Source: Streptomyces sp. CB02959
GTDB lineage: Bacteria; Actinomycetota; Actinomycetes; Streptomycetales; Streptomycetaceae
DNA length: 64,000 nt
Assembly: GCF_002803155.1 (NCBI RefSeq)
Contig: NZ_NNBP01000014.1
Location: 28,429 to 92,428, forward strand
Reading direction: 5' to 3'
The notes under the pieces are model-generated. The model was given only the letters and a program-made list of their open reading frames with translations. It ran no database searches and was not told the DNA's origin. Shown here piece by piece: positions 1 through 28,275 of the stretch. Made by a program: the position numbers and the translations under genes. How positions within the stretch are numbered: the stretch's first letter is position 1; the number at the start of each line of letters is the position of its first letter.

Positions 1-746
1 AGCACCATCGCATAGGCGGCGCGCTCGCCGCCGATCCGGCCGAGCAGGGTGAGGTACGCGCCGAAGCCCACCACCGACCCGAAGACCGCGAGGTAGAGCA
101 GTGAGCCGGTGTACTTCAGGGTGGGTTGGAACAGCGCGCCGTGCCCGGAGAAGGCCGCGAACGGGGCCATCAGCAGCGCCCCGTACGCCATGGCGTAGCC
201 GGTGCCCTGCACCACCGGGATGCCCGCCGCCTGGGTCTTGCCGGAGACCACGTTGCCCAGGCAGAAGACCAGGGTGCCGATCGCGGACAGGACGATGCCC
301 TGGCCCGAGCCGGAGGACAGGCCGAAGTTCTGGAACTCCGGCCAGAACACCGTGACGATCCCCAGCAGTCCGACGGCCCCGCCGACCAGCATCTTCGCGG
401 CGATCGTGCGCCGGAAGAAGACCCGGGCGAAGACCATGTTCACCAGCAGCGACATGGCGAAGACGATCGAGACCAGTCCGGTGGCCAGATACTGCTCGGC
501 GAAGTAGAAGCAGACGAAGTTGGTGGAGAACATCAGCCCGCCCATCAGGACGAACTGTCCGTGCACCCGCAGCGGATAGCGCAACGGCAGTCCGCGCAGC
601 CTGGCCCAGGCCAGCAGGATCACGGCGGCCAGCGCGAAGCGGTACGCGATCGACGCCGTGGGGTGCACATCCCCCAACTGGCCTTTGATCGCCAGCCAGG
701 TGGAGCCCCAGATCAGCACCGTCACCACGTACAGGACGGCGTTCAT
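1..746 (-). CDS. EamA/DMT-family membrane exporter, partial (3' end outside window)
   Basis: Predicted inner-membrane transporter of the drug/metabolite (EamA, 10-TM) family, whose known members include amino-acid and metabolite exporters. The visible 248 residues begin MNAVLYVVTVLIWGSTWLAI, the typical first EamA helix, followed by further hydrophobic helices; the C-terminus lies beyond the left edge. Its ATG overlaps the TGA of the upstream aminotransferase as ATGA, so the two are probably translationally coupled. Position as the last visible gene of the hydroxyphenylglycine-like operon suggests it exports the operon's product; that role is inference. Confidence 0.88.
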   Translation of the reverse strand, partial: MNAVLYVVTVLIWGSTWLAIKGQLGDVHPTASIAYRFALAAVILLAWARLRGLPLRYPLRVHGQFVLMGGLMFSTNFVCFYFAEQYLATGLVSIVFAMSLLVNMVFARVFFRRTIAAKMLVGGAVGLLGIVTVFWPEFQNFGLSSGSGQGIVLSAIGTLVFCLGNVVSGKTQAAGIPVVQGTGYAMAYGALLMAPFAAFSGHGALFQPTLKYTGSLLYLAVFGSVVGFGAYLTLLGRIGGERAAYAMV

Positions 747-2062
747 CCGCAGCTCCCTTCCAGCAGCCCGACCAGCCGGCGGGCGCCCTCGGCCACCTGA
801 TCCGGCGTCAGATAGCTGAGGGAGAGGCGCATCTGGTGACGTCCGCCGTCACCGTCGGGATAGAAGTAGCTCATCGGTGTCCAGATCACTCCGTGTTCGC
901 GGGCGGACTCTTCCAGCAAGGCATTGTCCGCCGGAACCGGCAGGGTCAGGGTCAGGAAGAAGCCGCCCGCCGGCACGTTCCAGCTGATTCCGGCCGCCTC
1001 CCGCCGCTCGCGGGGGAGCAGCCGGTCGAGGCTGTCGAGCAGGGTCCGCAGGTTGGACCGGTAGAAGTCCGCGGCGGGCTTGTTGGCCTCCCGCAGCCGG
1101 AAGTCGTGGCTGAGCAGCATGCCGCCGATGACCGCCTGGCTGAGCGCCGGGGTGTTCACCGTCACCATGCCCTTGATCTTCGACAGTTCGTCGGCCAGCA
1201 ACGTGCGACTGCCGTCCGGGGCCTGCACCTGCTGGTCGGCGATCACGTAGCCGACCCGGGCGCCGGGGAAGCAGGTCTTGGCGAACGAACCGAGGTAGAC
1301 CACCCGCCGCCGCTCGTCCAGGGCCTTGAGCGTGGGCAGGCCGGTGCCGTTCGGGGTGAAGAACCCGTACGGGTTGTCCTCCAGGACGAGCAGGTCCTCG
1401 GCCTCCGCCAGTTCCAGCAGCCGGCGGCGCGCGGCGACCGGCAGGCAGGTGCCGGTCGGGTTGGAGAAGTCCGGCACCACGTAGAACGCCCGCGGCCGCT
1501 TCCCGGCGGCGCGCAGCTCGGCGACCGTCCGCCGCAGGATGGCCGGATCGCATCCCTCCGGGCCCTCGGGGACGTGGACCGTCTCGATGTCCAGCAGCCG
1601 GGCCGCGCCGGTGATGCCGACGTAGCAGGGCGAGGAGACCAGCAGGACGTCGGACGGGTCGGCGAACAGGGCGCGCAGGACGAGGAACATGCCCTCCTGC
1701 GCGCCCACCGTGACCACCAGGGACGCCGGGTCGGCGGTGATGCCCTCGTCGTTGTGCAGGGCGCGGGCGACCAGTTCGTGGATCTGCCCGTTGGTGCGCC
1801 CGTACTGGAACAGCAGGGTGCGGACCTGGTCCGGGGTGCAGCCCCGCTCCTCGGTGAGGTACCGCTGGTAGGCGGTGAGGTAGTCGCCGATCCGCTCGAC
1901 CTCGAAGAGCCCTTCGTAGGGGCGGCCGGGGCCGAAGGAGATCGCCTCCGGGTAGCGGGAGGTGACCTCGTTGAGGAAGTTCATCACCTCCATCAGCGGA
2001 TCGGCGAGCGAGCCGTGCAGGGTCCCGGCCGGCAGCACGGTGGTGGGGGGATCCTGGCTCAC
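743..2062 (-). CDS. hpgT: PLP-dependent aminotransferase, HpgT-like
   Basis: Fold-type I aminotransferase of 439 residues. The PLP lysine is probably Lys262 in the motif SFAKT, followed by PGARVGY; upstream are NPTG and the DNPYG motif typical of class I/II enzymes. There is no GntR domain, so it is not a MocR regulator. In glycopeptide pathways HpgT transaminates 4-hydroxybenzoylformate to L-4-hydroxyphenylglycine, often with tyrosine as donor, which regenerates the HmaS substrate. The assignment rests on its place after hmaS and hmo; sequence alone would allow an aromatic or 2-aminoadipate-type aminotransferase. The GTG start overlaps the preceding TGA as GTGA. Confidence 0.8.
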   Translation of the reverse strand: MSQDPPTTVLPAGTLHGSLADPLMEVMNFLNEVTSRYPEAISFGPGRPYEGLFEVERIGDYLTAYQRYLTEERGCTPDQVRTLLFQYGRTNGQIHELVARALHNDEGITADPASLVVTVGAQEGMFLVLRALFADPSDVLLVSSPCYVGITGAARLLDIETVHVPEGPEGCDPAILRRTVAELRAAGKRPRAFYVVPDFSNPTGTCLPVAARRRLLELAEAEDLLVLEDNPYGFFTPNGTGLPTLKALDERRRVVYLGSFAKTCFPGARVGYVIADQQVQAPDGSRTLLADELSKIKGMVTVNTPALSQAVIGGMLLSHDFRLREANKPAADFYRSNLRTLLDSLDRLLPRERREAAGISWNVPAGGFFLTLTLPVPADNALLEESAREHGVIWTPMSYFYPDGDGGRHQMRLSLSYLTPDQVAEGARRLVGLLEGSCG

Positions 2063-2976
2063 CTGGCGTCCTCCCACAGGACCGGGCAGAAGTCGGGGTC
2101 GGTGTAGTCGGGGTTGCCGGCCGCGTCCCGGCGGACCAGGACGTCGTTGTTGTAGACCACCAGGTCGCCGGTGGACAGCTCGTAGGGGCGCCACTGGTTG
2201 GTGCGGTCCTGGAGGTGGAGGGAGATGGCGCGGCGGGGCCGGTCGCTGACGTTGTGCCCGCTGCCGTGGTAGGTGCGGCAGTGGTGGAAGCTGATGTGCC
2301 CCTTGGGGATGGTGACGGGCACCTTGCGGACCTCCGCGCCGTTGAACGCGGCGTTCTCCGCCAGCATCTCGTCCAGTTCGGACCGGTCGCGGTCGGCGAA
2401 GTGGCGGCTGGTGGAGTCGTCGCCGCCGATCTCCTTCCAGCGGTGGCTGCCGTCCACCATCGTGATGGTGCCCATCTCCTCACCGCAGTCGTGGAAGGGG
2501 ACGAACGCGGTGAGCATCTCGTCGGAGGAGCAGGTCTGCCAGTAGTGCCGGTCGAAGTGCCAGGGCACGATGTTGCGCGTGTCGTCCGCACGCGGGGGCT
2601 TGTGGATCAGGGTGCTGTTCCACAGGCGTATCTGGCTGGTCCGCGAGATCCGGGCGGCGACCGCCGCGATGATCGGCTTGGCCAGGATGGAGCGGATGGT
2701 GTCGTCCTCGTAGAAGATGTAGTCGTTGTGCCGGTGCACATCGCCCTTCTCCGGCTCCCAGTACGCCAGCCGCGGCGGCCGGGTCGGCAGGGTGCGGTCC
2801 CGGTGGCCGGTGTAGAAGCGGTCGGCCGCGGAGTCCAGCAGGTCGACCTCTTCGTCGGTGAGCAGCTTGTTCGACAGGTACCAGCCGTGCTCCTGGAAGA
2901 ACTCCACCTCCTCGTCGGTGGGCAGGAGCTCCCGCTCGGCGGCGGTCAGCGGGAAACGGGTGTCGTCGGTGGTCAT
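2059..2976 (-). CDS. PhyH-type Fe(II)/2-oxoglutarate dioxygenase
   Basis: A 305-residue phytanoyl-CoA-dioxygenase-family protein. The iron facial triad is visible: H140-x-D142 in WHFDRHYW and a distal His near residue 237 in TYHGSGHN; downstream Arg residues (RPRRAISLHLQ) could bind 2-oxoglutarate. Members hydroxylate, desaturate or halogenate small substrates. The Asp of HxD is retained, which argues against a halogenase. It lies between hmo and hpgT with four-base overlaps on both sides, so it is an integral member of the operon. Classical Hpg gene sets do not need such an enzyme, so it may modify the arylglycine or a precursor; the substrate is unknown. Confidence 0.88.
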   Translation of the reverse strand: MTTDDTRFPLTAAERELLPTDEEVEFFQEHGWYLSNKLLTDEEVDLLDSAADRFYTGHRDRTLPTRPPRLAYWEPEKGDVHRHNDYIFYEDDTIRSILAKPIIAAVAARISRTSQIRLWNSTLIHKPPRADDTRNIVPWHFDRHYWQTCSSDEMLTAFVPFHDCGEEMGTITMVDGSHRWKEIGGDDSTSRHFADRDRSELDEMLAENAAFNGAEVRKVPVTIPKGHISFHHCRTYHGSGHNVSDRPRRAISLHLQDRTNQWRPYELSTGDLVVYNNDVLVRRDAAGNPDYTDPDFCPVLWEDAR

Positions 2977-4154
2977 GCCGGGTCCTTCGTCTCGGTGGTG
3001 TGGGGAGGTGCGGTGATGGTCAGGTGGTGCGGCCGGTCCCCGCAGGGGTGCAGCAGATCGCGGGTGACGGCGTCGAGGCGGGGCCGGCCGGTGAGGGCCA
3101 TCGCCTCCTCCAGTTCCGCGCGGAGGGTGGTCAGCACCCGCTCCACGCCGGTCTCGCCGTCGACGGCCAGACCCCACAGGACGGGCCGGCCGACCAGGAC
3201 CGCGCGGGCCCCGAGCGCCAGTGCCTTGAGCACGTCCGTCCCGCGCCGGATCCCGCCGTCGACGAGTACCTCGCACCGGTCGCCGGCGGCCGCGACGACC
3301 TCCGGCAGGGCTTCCAACGCCGGTACAGCACCGTCGAGTTGGCGTCCCCCGTGGGTGGAGACGACCAGCCCGGCCACGCCCAGTCCGGCCGCCCGGTCGG
3401 CGTCCTCCGCGGTGAGCACGCCCTTGAGCACCAGCGGCAGATCGGTCAGCGACCGGAGCCACGCCAGGTCGTCCCAGGTGAACGTGGCGTCGTGGTGCTG
3501 GGCGGCGTGTCCGGCGAGCGTGGAGCTGCCGGAGCGGCCCTGGTGCAGCCCGGCTGTGTGGTCCTGGTCGAGATTGGCCGGGCGGATGTGTGGCGGAAGC
3601 CGGAAGCCGTTGCGGAGGTCGCGTTCCCGGCGGGCCATCCGCGGGGTGTCGACGGTGATCACCAGGGCCTGGTAGCCGGCGGCTTCGGCCCGGCGCACCA
3701 GGGACGCGGTGACCTCCCGGCGGCGCAGCACGTACAGCTGGAGCCACAGTGGTCCGGTGGCGGCCTCGGCGATCTCCTCCAGCGGTGTGCTGGCGAAGGT
3801 GCTGGCGATGGTGAGCGCACCCGCCGTGCCGGCCGCGCGGACGGTGGCGGTCTCGCCGTCGGGGTGGACCAGCCGGTGGTAGGCCATCGGCGCGATGCCC
3901 ACGGGGAAGGCCACCGGCCGGCCGAGCAGGGTGGCGGTCGGGTCGCAGTGGTCCACGTCGACCAGGGCGCGCGGGCGCAGCCGGTAGCGGCCGTAGGCCG
4001 CGCGGTCCTCGCGCAGGGTCACCTCGTCGCCGCTGCCGCCGGCGATGTAGTCCCACACCGGCCGGTCCAGCCGGGCGCGGGCCGCGGTCTCGTAGTCCCG
4101 CGGGTTCAGCAGCAGGTCGGGCCGGGTGCCGGGGGAGGCGGCCGGCGCGGTCAC
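2973..4154 (-). CDS. hmo: FMN-dependent alpha-hydroxy acid oxidase, 4-hydroxymandelate oxidase-like
   Basis: A 393-residue TIM-barrel flavoenzyme of the glycolate/lactate/mandelate oxidase family. Family landmarks are present in order: VWDYIAGGSGDE near the N-terminus, FPVGIAPMAYHRL, the VLKGVLTAEDA lysine, the catalytic STHGGRQLDG histidine, and the LVDGGIRRGTDVLKALALGA phosphate-binding segment. In Hpg biosynthesis Hmo oxidises 4-hydroxymandelate to 4-hydroxybenzoylformate. Specificity is inferred from the adjacent HmaS-like gene. The GTG start overlaps the hmaS stop as GTGA and the gene's TGA overlaps the next ATG. Confidence 0.87.
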   Translation of the reverse strand: MTAPAASPGTRPDLLLNPRDYETAARARLDRPVWDYIAGGSGDEVTLREDRAAYGRYRLRPRALVDVDHCDPTATLLGRPVAFPVGIAPMAYHRLVHPDGETATVRAAGTAGALTIASTFASTPLEEIAEAATGPLWLQLYVLRRREVTASLVRRAEAAGYQALVITVDTPRMARRERDLRNGFRLPPHIRPANLDQDHTAGLHQGRSGSSTLAGHAAQHHDATFTWDDLAWLRSLTDLPLVLKGVLTAEDADRAAGLGVAGLVVSTHGGRQLDGAVPALEALPEVVAAAGDRCEVLVDGGIRRGTDVLKALALGARAVLVGRPVLWGLAVDGETGVERVLTTLRAELEEAMALTGRPRLDAVTRDLLHPCGDRPHHLTITAPPHTTETKDPA

Positions 4155-5248
4155 TCGCCGGTCCTGGCCGCGGCCCCCGCCGGTACGGCGTTCTCGGCGC
4201 GCTCCCGTTCGACGGCCTCGTAGAGGGCCTTGATGTTGCCGCTGCCGAAGGTGCGGGCGTCGAGCCGCTGGATCAGCTCGAAGAACACCGTTCGGCGGGC
4301 GTACGGGGACCGGGTGAAGACCTGCACCAGCTGGCCCCACTCGTCCCGGTCGGCGAGCAGCCCCAGGTCCTGGAGGACCGCCGGGTCGACGCCCACCTCG
4401 ATGCCGCGCTCGGCGAGCGAGGCGTAGTAGCCGGCCGGCGTGCCGAGCAACTCCACGCCGGAGCCGCGGAGTTCGCGTGCGGCGGTGACGATGTCGTCGG
4501 TGGCGTAGGCGAGGTGCTGCACGCCCGGGCCGTCGAAGCCGTCGAGGAAGTCGTTGAGCTGCCCGCGGTCGCTGACCGGGTCGGGTTCCACCATGGTGAA
4601 GGTGATGCCCCGGGTCTCGTCCTGGACGACCTTGGAGGCCATCGCCTGCCCGCCGACGACGATGTACTCGTCGTAGGTGTGCTTCAGGCCCAGCGCCCGG
4701 CCGTAGAAGTCGACCATGGTGTCCAGGGAACCGGGCCGCAGGACGAATGCCAGGTGGTCGACGGACCGCAGCAGCCCGCGGTCGGCCGCGCCGTCGTCGA
4801 CGGGCAGGAACCGCCCCGGCAGGAATGGGACTGACGGATCGTCACGTTGGATGAAGGTGTGCACCAGGTCGTTGGTCGCGGCGATGGTGGCCCGCACGAC
4901 CCGGCCGCCCGCGTCCTCGAACGTCTCGGGCCCGGAGACCGGGTCGGCCCCCGCGGCCACCGCACGGGCGAAGTCGCCGGCCGCGTCGGTGGACCGCAGG
5001 GCCACGTCGCGGACGCCGTCCCCGTGCCGGCGGACGAAGTGCGAGGCGGCGTGGTCGGCGTGCAGGGCCGAGGTCAGCACCAGGCGCACCCCGCCGTGGG
5101 CCAGCACGAGCGAGCGGGCGCCGGCCAGCCCGGTGAGCGGTCCGGCCTCGGCCACCACACGGAATCCGTAGGTGCCGCAGTAGTAGTGGGATGCCTGATT
5201 GACGTCCCCGACGAAGAACTCGACATGGTCGACGGAATGGGCGGTCAC
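4151..5248 (-). CDS. hmaS: 4-hydroxymandelate synthase-like dioxygenase (HPPD family)
   Basis: Two-domain vicinal-oxygen-chelate dioxygenase of 365 residues. Probable iron ligands are His165 (SVDHLAF), His245 (GVQHLAY) and Glu324 (FFELIQ). Their spacing of 80 and 79 residues equals that of Amycolatopsis HmaS (H161, H241, E320 as I recall it), whereas Streptomyces HPPD has a longer first interval. HmaS converts 4-hydroxyphenylpyruvate to 4-hydroxymandelate; HPPD would give homogentisate. The following hmo-like gene supports HmaS. The C-terminal FGSGNIKALYEAVE helix closes the active site in the family. The GTG start is the first one fitting the conserved N-terminal SVDHVEFFV segment. Confidence 0.86.
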   Translation of the reverse strand: MTAHSVDHVEFFVGDVNQASHYYCGTYGFRVVAEAGPLTGLAGARSLVLAHGGVRLVLTSALHADHAASHFVRRHGDGVRDVALRSTDAAGDFARAVAAGADPVSGPETFEDAGGRVVRATIAATNDLVHTFIQRDDPSVPFLPGRFLPVDDGAADRGLLRSVDHLAFVLRPGSLDTMVDFYGRALGLKHTYDEYIVVGGQAMASKVVQDETRGITFTMVEPDPVSDRGQLNDFLDGFDGPGVQHLAYATDDIVTAARELRGSGVELLGTPAGYYASLAERGIEVGVDPAVLQDLGLLADRDEWGQLVQVFTRSPYARRTVFFELIQRLDARTFGSGNIKALYEAVERERAENAVPAGAAARTGE

Positions 5249-5334
5249 ACTGATCCAATCTCTTGTGCGGAAGGGTGGGGAGGCGCACCGGACCGCCCCG
5301 CCGGCGGAACGCCGCGCGGGGGGTGGCCGCGAGG

Positions 5335-6051
5335 TCAGGGCAAGGGGGTCGCCGGTGCCCCCGCCGCCTCGGCGAGGGTGCGGAAGACGTAGCAGGTCGA
5401 GGTGGCGCCCGGATCCTGGTGGCCGATGCTGCGCAGTCCGAGATACGCGGCCCGGCCCTTCCTGGCCTGGAGCGGGACGGTGGCGCGCATACCGTCCTCG
5501 GCCGCCCGGGCCGCGGCGCGGGCAGAAGCGGGGAAGCCGGCGCCGGACTCCGCGGCGGCCCGGAAGGCGCTGACCGCGGGGGAGCAGGCGTCGATCATGG
5601 TCTTGTCGCCGGGCACGGCCGCGCCGAGCCGCTGCACGGTGGCCAACGCGGCGGTGAGGCCGGCCGCGAACTGCCGGGTGTCGACCTCCGGCGCGGTGCC
5701 GAGGGCCTCGCCCAGTGTGCGGAAGGCGCCCCCGTACAGGGGTCCGGAGGCGCCACCCACCACGGACAGGAGGGTCTTGCCCGCGGCGGTCAGCGCGGCG
5801 CCGGGGGAGGCCGGTGGACGGGACGGGGCGTCGAGCGTGACGCGTACGGCGGCGAATCCGCGGGCCATGTTGACCCCGTGGTCCCCGTCCCCGATGGCCG
5901 AGTCGAGTCGGATGAGGTGGTCCTGCTGCTGGTGCATGGCCGTGCTGACGCGCCGCAGCCAGTCGAGGACGACGGCATGGTCGGCCGTGTCCCGGCCGGG
6001 CGTTTCCGCACGGCCCAGTAACGTCTCGGGCTCCCCCGCAGGCTCCCGCAT
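5335..6051 (-). CDS. dhaL: Orphan DhaL-type (dihydroxyacetone kinase ADP-binding) protein
   Basis: A 238-residue DhaL-family protein. The nucleotide/Mg site motif DSAIGDGDHG is near residue 53, followed by GGASGPLYGGAF and a C-terminal DPGATST segment, as in the helical-barrel L subunit. DhaL binds ADP/ATP and normally works with the dihydroxyacetone-binding DhaK and, in PTS types, DhaM. Neither partner is visible here. ATG 6051 was chosen for the GAAGGAG ribosome site eight bases upstream. It heads the hmaS operon (86-bp gap to hmaS) and has IclR-type operator candidates upstream. Its role here is unknown; a link to supply of a phosphorylated precursor would be speculation. Confidence 0.87.
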   Translation of the reverse strand: MREPAGEPETLLGRAETPGRDTADHAVVLDWLRRVSTAMHQQQDHLIRLDSAIGDGDHGVNMARGFAAVRVTLDAPSRPPASPGAALTAAGKTLLSVVGGASGPLYGGAFRTLGEALGTAPEVDTRQFAAGLTAALATVQRLGAAVPGDKTMIDACSPAVSAFRAAAESGAGFPASARAAARAAEDGMRATVPLQARKGRAAYLGLRSIGHQDPGATSTCYVFRTLAEAAGAPATPLP

Positions 6052-6109
6052 GGCAGGCGCTCCTTCGATCCCCCGTGCCGCAGTGCTGAGCGGCCACCGG
6101 ATTACCATC

Positions 6110-28084: not shown

Positions 28085-28275
28085 GCGCACCCTTTCACCA
28101 GGCAGTTCGATGTGCTTGCCGACGGCGCCGGTCACCTGACCGCGCCGTCCTCAGCCGCCACCGCGGGGAGCGGGCACAGCTGCGGCACGCACAGTGTGGC
28201 AGCATCCGCGGACCTCCCCGGGCTCGGGGCCCGCGCGCCGCTCCGGCCGGGACGGCCGGAGGCGCCGCACCCCGG

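Follow-up and report, generated by a model that had tools for sequence, protein, structure and literature searches.

An operon of hydroxyphenylglycine-type genes with a PhyH-family oxygenase and a putative EamA exporter in Streptomyces sp. CB02959

L-4-Hydroxyphenylglycine (Hpg) is known to be made in the order prephenate dehydrogenase (TyrA), hydroxymandelate synthase (HmaS), hydroxymandelate oxidase (Hmo) and the aminotransferase HpgT, and an extra prephenate dehydrogenase is also present in the Hpg operons of glycopeptide clusters. The operons of the balhimycin/chloroeremomycin type comprise pdh, hmaS, hmo and hpgT, and the Hpg genes for the calcium-dependent antibiotic (CDA) and nocardicin follow the same HmaS-Hmo-HpgT route to supply modules of nonribosomal peptide synthetases (NRPSs); the CDA and nocardicin genes are not known to have a PhyH partner. 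Where Hpg genes are found, an NRPS product is usually expected. Here, we describe an operon at the left end of a 64,000-nucleotide stretch (the window; positions 28429-92428 of the 229,770-base contig C6, NZ_NNBP01000014.1) of the 10.36-Mb genome of Streptomyces sp. CB02959. It holds the same four enzyme families as the glycopeptide Hpg operon, and its aminotransferase (AT) and Hmo are 50-57% identical to their counterparts in HmaS loci without PhyH. In contrast to the glycopeptide operon, a PhyH gene lies inside the operon, an EamA transporter gene overlaps it and the contig gives no NRPS match. The operon most likely belongs to the Hpg-supply pathway family of glycopeptide clusters, and we consider it fairly probable that it is dedicated to the synthesis and export of an arylglycine, perhaps an oxidised one.

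Gene calling combined with Pfam and NCBIfam placed dhaL, HmaS, Hmo, PhyH, AT and EamA on the minus strand of the first ~6 kb (Table 1), and the gene set claimed in a first-pass annotation of this DNA was found in full, with its families confirmed by Pfam. The Pfam matches (PF00903, PF01070, PF05721, PF00155, PF00892, PF02153 and PF02962) are all above their cut-offs, and both databases support the gene names with the one exception that NCBIfam labels HmaS as 4-hydroxyphenylpyruvate dioxygenase (HPPD). The four-base overlaps claimed from HmaS to EamA are present at every junction (HmaS/Hmo, GTGA; Hmo/PhyH, ATGA; PhyH/AT, GTGA; AT/EamA, ATGA). Across the window and 12 other EamA-type loci described below, such overlaps are kept in 11/13 cases between Hmo and PhyH and in 13/13 at each of the other three junctions, and thus are not due to chance. 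To the left of the window, the operon continues from the end of EamA (contig position 28206) over a 161-base gap to TyrA and over a 60-base gap to a CHMI-like tautomerase, after which comes an acylphosphatase on the same strand. This TyrA is an extra copy, because a second prephenate dehydrogenase (47% identical) is encoded on contig C35. On the other side, dhaL was rejected as a pathway gene: it is present in 7/12 of the other EamA-type loci, its distance to HmaS varies and the gap in the window is 86 bases, which makes it a probable neighbour rather than a member of the operon.

Table 1. Positions of the operon genes and their neighbours (window coordinates unless contig C6 is given)
Feature	Position	Strand	Remarks
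HmaS, 4-hydroxymandelate synthase	4151-5248	minus	GTG start; PF00903
Hmo, FMN-dependent 4-hydroxymandelate oxidase	2973-4154	minus	GTG start; PF01070, 458 bits
PhyH, Fe(II)/2-oxoglutarate oxygenase	2059-2976	minus	ATG start; PF05721
HpgT-type aminotransferase (AT)	743-2062	minus	GTG start; PF00155
EamA/DMT transporter, N-terminal 248 amino acids	3-746, open at window edge	minus	PF00892, two stretches
dhaL	5335-6108	minus	TIGR02365, 211.7 bits, above cut-off
Prephenate dehydrogenase (TyrA)	contig C6 26869-28044, left of window	same strand as operon	PF02153
CHMI-like tautomerase	contig C6 26431-26808, left of window	same strand as operon	PF02962

In the pathway that we propose, the extra prephenate dehydrogenase would convert prephenate to 4-hydroxyphenylpyruvate, HmaS would turn this into (S)-4-hydroxymandelate, Hmo would oxidise the latter to 4-hydroxybenzoylformate and the HpgT-type aminotransferase would yield the arylglycine. 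PhyH would add an oxidation at some point of this route, acting either on a precursor or on the finished amino acid, and EamA would pump the product out of the cell. The sequence shows directly which genes are present, that their catalytic residues are intact, that the genes are coupled, that no NRPS is encoded nearby and that the set recurs. The core reactions are predicted from family membership and intact catalytic residues, and we infer the PhyH step, the structure and oxidised nature of the product and its free secretion. The dedicated prephenate dehydrogenase and the recurrent pairing of HmaS with PhyH are new beyond the first-pass annotation.

The pairing was seen in the best 80 of 216 loci of public genomes ranked by PhyH similarity, a selection that inflates PhyH identities and in which HmaS adjacency played no part. 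In 80/80 loci, HmaS lies upstream of PhyH on the same strand within 1.3 kb, with Hmo intervening in the EamA type. It is evident that PhyH belongs to a recurrent cassette and that the HmaS-PhyH pair recurs in actinomycete clusters of several kinds; the whole hmaS-hmo-PhyH-hpgT-EamA set, for which a genome-neighbourhood comparison had been suggested, recurs in 12 other loci. Among 293 genomes of the order that were sampled independently, 30 contain PhyH and 51 contain HmaS-like genes (63 rows, including at least one HPPD, G002:C17). PhyH lies no more than 5 kb from HmaS in each of the 27 top-scoring HmaS rows and in 2/36 of the other rows, and for 29/37 PhyH rows an HmaS is listed within this distance. 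Among the remaining eight PhyH rows, G007 and G227:C12 have an HmaS below the cut, the stretches L190, L191 and L194 show none, and G023:C222, G227:C34 and G017:C1:2518811 were left out of the HmaS check. The link between the two genes has been gained or lost more than once, because the PhyH-linked HmaS proteins are not one clade (six label changes in the tree). Moreover, PhyH looks like a step under tighter constraint, since in the 62 loci L027-L088 it is 66-71% identical to the window protein, compared with 42-49% for HmaS; in paired loci of the order sample outside the window type, the values are 61-70% and 44-48%, respectively.

PhyH itself is confidently assigned to the Fe(II)/2-oxoglutarate (2OG) dioxygenase family. 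It matches PF05721 with 79.9 bits (cut-off 22), and the motif H140-x-D142...H237 and the arginines R248/R249 are invariant in 14 aligned sequences; from family knowledge, we take H140, D142 and H237 to be the metal triad and the arginine to bind 2OG. A predicted model (mean pLDDT 75, built from 14 sequences) gave fits scattered over many 2OG enzymes, so that the fold singles out no substrate; the best fits to catalytic enzymes include SnoK, SnoN, MysH and GriE at Z 19-22, and EctD is fitted as well. SnoK and SnoN reach Z ~22, a value also attained by chain 8fni_14 of the trypanosomal protein RESC14 (Z 22.0, equal to SnoK). The fold and the metal/2OG residue pattern are common to PhyH and SnoK/SnoN, GriE, MysH and EctD, but PhyH is only 15-24% identical to them (VIA-align rows), and the known substrates of these enzymes (nogalamycin, leucine, mycosporine and ectoine) are unlike any aryl acid.

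HmaS is firmly placed by its sequence as a hydroxymandelate synthase rather than an HPPD. Among solved proteins, it scores 254-257 bits with 7yvv, 3zgj (which we take to be the S. coelicolor HmaS) and 2r5v (PCZA361.1) and 224 bits with the HPPD 1t47. In a tree of 79 rows (this and the other trees were built by a quick method), 66 HmaS are split from 13 HPPDs with support of 100, and the 13 EamA-type HmaS rows form their own branch with support of 99. The iron ligands H165, H245 and E324 are intact, and T218, V220 and I339 replace the P, N and F that are found in 13/13 HPPDs of the alignment. The protein thus stays apart from HPPD; a grouping with HPPD, and of Hmo with lactate oxidases, was what the first-pass annotation had named as fatal to its proposal. 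Conserved residues that distinguish hydroxymandelate synthase from HPPD are described in a previous paper (PMC3720870), while T218, V220 and I339 as distinguishing positions are a reading of the alignment made here.

The placement of Hmo is less firm than that of HmaS. Its catalytic residues Y141, D169, K244, H268 and R271 are intact, and R175 is kept in 17/17 Hmo of HmaS loci without PhyH, in 0/17 other FMN oxidases and in only 5/16 carrier-protein-type loci. In a tree with a weak root, Hmo groups with the HmaS-linked oxidases; 17/28 other FMN oxidases are separate and 11/28 fall among them, of which eight share a contig with an HmaS gene and three are untraced. The claim that the enzyme belongs with hydroxymandelate oxidases is therefore favoured by the tree grouping and by R175 as in the loci without PhyH, and weakened by the root, by the loss of R175 in most carrier-protein-type loci and by scores that lie closer to glycolate oxidases. 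The top-scoring solved row is a doubled lactate oxidase chain (350 bits over two stretches). Hmo is the sole gene of its kind in the genome at E<=1e-40.

The aminotransferase keeps the pyridoxal phosphate lysine Lys262 together with Asn201 and Arg412, and Lys262 is present in 35/35 compared sequences. It is 52-57% identical to an aminotransferase present in 15 of 20 HmaS loci without PhyH (a comparison set drawn from 34 such HmaS rows), and is tied to HpgT by position because similar enzymes occur in these loci, 12/20 of which are matched by a condensation-domain probe. EamA is 68-91% identical across the 12 loci and has two EamA domains (PF00892) already in its window part, while a run of N inside the gene, immediately beyond the left edge (below position 28430 of contig C6), masks 13 residues. 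Its kinship to TIGR00950 is weak (69 bits against a cut-off of 230). It most likely acts as an exporter rather than an importer.

With regard to assembly enzymes, the 31 condensation-domain matches found genome-wide all lie on contigs other than C6, and gene calling found no NRPS directly left of the window, where the next gene is prephenate dehydrogenase. An NRPS just left of the window is thereby ruled out, and the earlier statement that an exporter stands in place of an NRPS holds for the left flank and for condensation matches on the contig. For the compared loci, the condensation test was a single probe sequence at E<=1e-8 over at most ~10 kb per side, so that remoter NRPS genes would escape it. 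Within this range, the probe matches 1/80 PhyH-type loci (L034) and 12/20 HmaS loci without PhyH, four of these latter matches being just 28-30% identical.

Several points weigh against a secreted arylglycine as the product of the window operon. Hmo scores 336 bits with solved glycolate oxidases and 309 bits with the solved Amycolatopsis Hmo (5zzp); the best solved sequence match of PhyH reaches only E 1.8e-11, so that no close solved relative points to its substrate; the genome does hold other NRPSs; one further locus with PhyH-HmaS-Hmo-AT (L192, not among the 80) gives a weak condensation match (28%); and the direction of transport by EamA is not readable from sequence. The Hmo scores would suit a tyrosine-catabolic operon in which the HmaS-like protein is an HPPD and the oxidase acts on lactate or glycolate, and so would the facts that HmaS exceeds the TIGR01263 (HPPD) cut-off (304.8 against 277 bits) and that its gene is annotated as hppD in a related plasmid operon. 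However, a separate true HPPD occurs in 13/13 sampled genomes at 429-461 bits, including this one (445.6 bits), and no further tyrosine-degradation gene was recognised within the operon. Together with the tree split and the replaced residues, the separate HPPDs led us to reject tyrosine catabolism, which we regard as very improbable.

Another view is that the operon acts in trans, doing no more than supplying Hpg, with or without oxidation, to an NRPS encoded elsewhere in the genome, and that the transporter is incidental. This would agree with the condensation matches on other contigs and with those near 12/20 HmaS loci without PhyH, the four low-identity ones included, but the 12 other EamA-type loci have no condensation match within the flanks covered and the overlap of EamA with AT in 13/13 cases hardly suits an incidental gene. 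In addition, no Hpg-like adenylation code was found among 16 motif hits from 13 stretches of this genome, a negative that excludes little since the script is rough (10/16 hits with gaps, at least one spurious, no validated Hpg control). We think supply in trans unlikely. It also seems improbable to us that the product is plain Hpg or 4-hydroxybenzoylformate and that PhyH duplicates the Hmo step or clears a side product. Such a role is chemically conceivable, as oxidation of 4-hydroxymandelate at its benzylic carbon is a reaction that a 2OG oxygenase might carry out, and 46/80 PhyH-type loci have no Hmo within the flanks whereas 34/80 have one. On the other hand, the window and each of the 18 loci of the EamA and PhzF types carry Hmo alongside PhyH, and both of the loci lacking a nearby Hmo that were followed further along the contig (L030 and L081, from Micromonospora) have Hmo and AT 13-16 kb away. 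Moreover, PhyH is conserved better than HmaS across the 62 loci L027-L088, a set ranked by PhyH, which would not be expected of a redundant accessory enzyme.

Our preferred reading, a synthesis-and-export operon, can be set beside the other neighbourhoods of the cassette. By neighbour set, the 80 loci comprise 12 with EamA, six with PhzF, three with ATP-grasp and 57 with an AvaA6-like gene (56 by clustering), and two short loci are unplaced. The PhzF setting combines a PhzF isomerase with an alcohol dehydrogenase, a major facilitator superfamily (MFS) transporter and RidA. In this sister layout of six loci, HmaS, Hmo, PhyH, AT and TyrA stand with the MFS transporter and no condensation match was found, which supports a free secreted product because no assembly enzyme is recognised there. 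The ATP-grasp setting has an ATP-grasp amino-acid ligase and a luciferase-like enzyme. The AvaA6-like setting has a diazotase-type AMP ligase, which in most cases is accompanied by ketosynthase and carrier proteins, and was counted by a homologue at least 56% identical to the L032 protein; in 7/57, a nitrosuccinate-lyase homologue (at least 67% identical to the scanned one) lies beside a flavin (FAD) partner. Each of the two names was assigned from a single scanned protein (AvaA6, 508 bits against a cut-off of 975; nitrosuccinate lyase, 691 against 650).

Tentatively, HmaS-Hmo-PhyH-AT-TyrA may be an undescribed building-block module whose product is a novel arylglycine, oxidised and possibly dearomatised. 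This product would serve in at least four settings, through free secretion (with EamA, or with MFS and PhzF), ligation by ATP-grasp enzymes, or transfer to carrier-protein lines by way of a diazotase-like ligase. Near the cassette, isomerases are repeatedly found (CHMI-like in 7/12 EamA-type loci, PhzF in 6/6 MFS-type loci), and we speculate that they would suit a product in need of tautomerisation whose ring PhyH has rendered non-aromatic. Diazotisation in the ava and cma clusters, which concern avenalumic and p-coumaric acid, is described in a recent paper (PMC10777205). The AvaA6-like ligase homologue of the 57 loci and the nitrosuccinate-lyase homologue that seven of them add recall those clusters, whereas the window operon has no such genes and the scanned AvaA6-like protein remains below its cut-off.

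Among the matches listed in the open-licence literature, there was no report of HmaS and a PhyH enzyme in one pathway, which is weak evidence of absence; one paper mentioning both terms concerns AspH variants (PMC12816917). The matches listed for diazo chemistry, and the single paper listed as naming forphenicine with biosynthesis, held nothing on the window operon. If our reading is true, an oxidised arylglycine is the product of a group of actinomycete clusters, formed via a route with an additional, unassigned iron oxygenase. Such operons are easily overlooked, because Hpg genes imply an NRPS to readers and HmaS is annotated as hppD in one relative.

Other loci showed further arrangements. 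One HmaS-PhyH-TyrA cluster (L028:11960-15279) carries a nitrosuccinate lyase (curated match), its FAD partner and a diazotase-like AMP ligase, with homologues of the set in L029, L031, L034, L037, L040 and L069; nitrous-acid N-N chemistry on an arylglycine-derived unit is possible in these clusters. In L032:10930-15013, the genes after HmaS-PhyH encode a haem-oxygenase-like DUF3050 protein, dehydrogenase subunits of the E1 alpha/beta type and a 449-amino-acid protein with no more than a weak ATP-grasp match, and such genes are common in Micromonospora/Kribbella loci. In L027:4639-7922, and likewise in L033 and L036, HmaS-PhyH-TyrA-AT-Hmo has a luciferase-like oxidoreductase and two ATP-grasp proteins as neighbours, and a dipeptide-type product is possible. 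A 42% identical PhyH occurs on a Planktothrix agardhii plasmid (L249:2547-8869) next to asparagine synthase, L-aspartate oxidase and an aminotransferase, and HmaS is not among the annotated genes of the stretch shown. Finally, a 616-kb plasmid of Streptomyces angustmyceticus (NZ_CP104318.1, L250:4726-5835) carries an EamA-type operon, in which the hppD annotation of HmaS is probably a mislabel.

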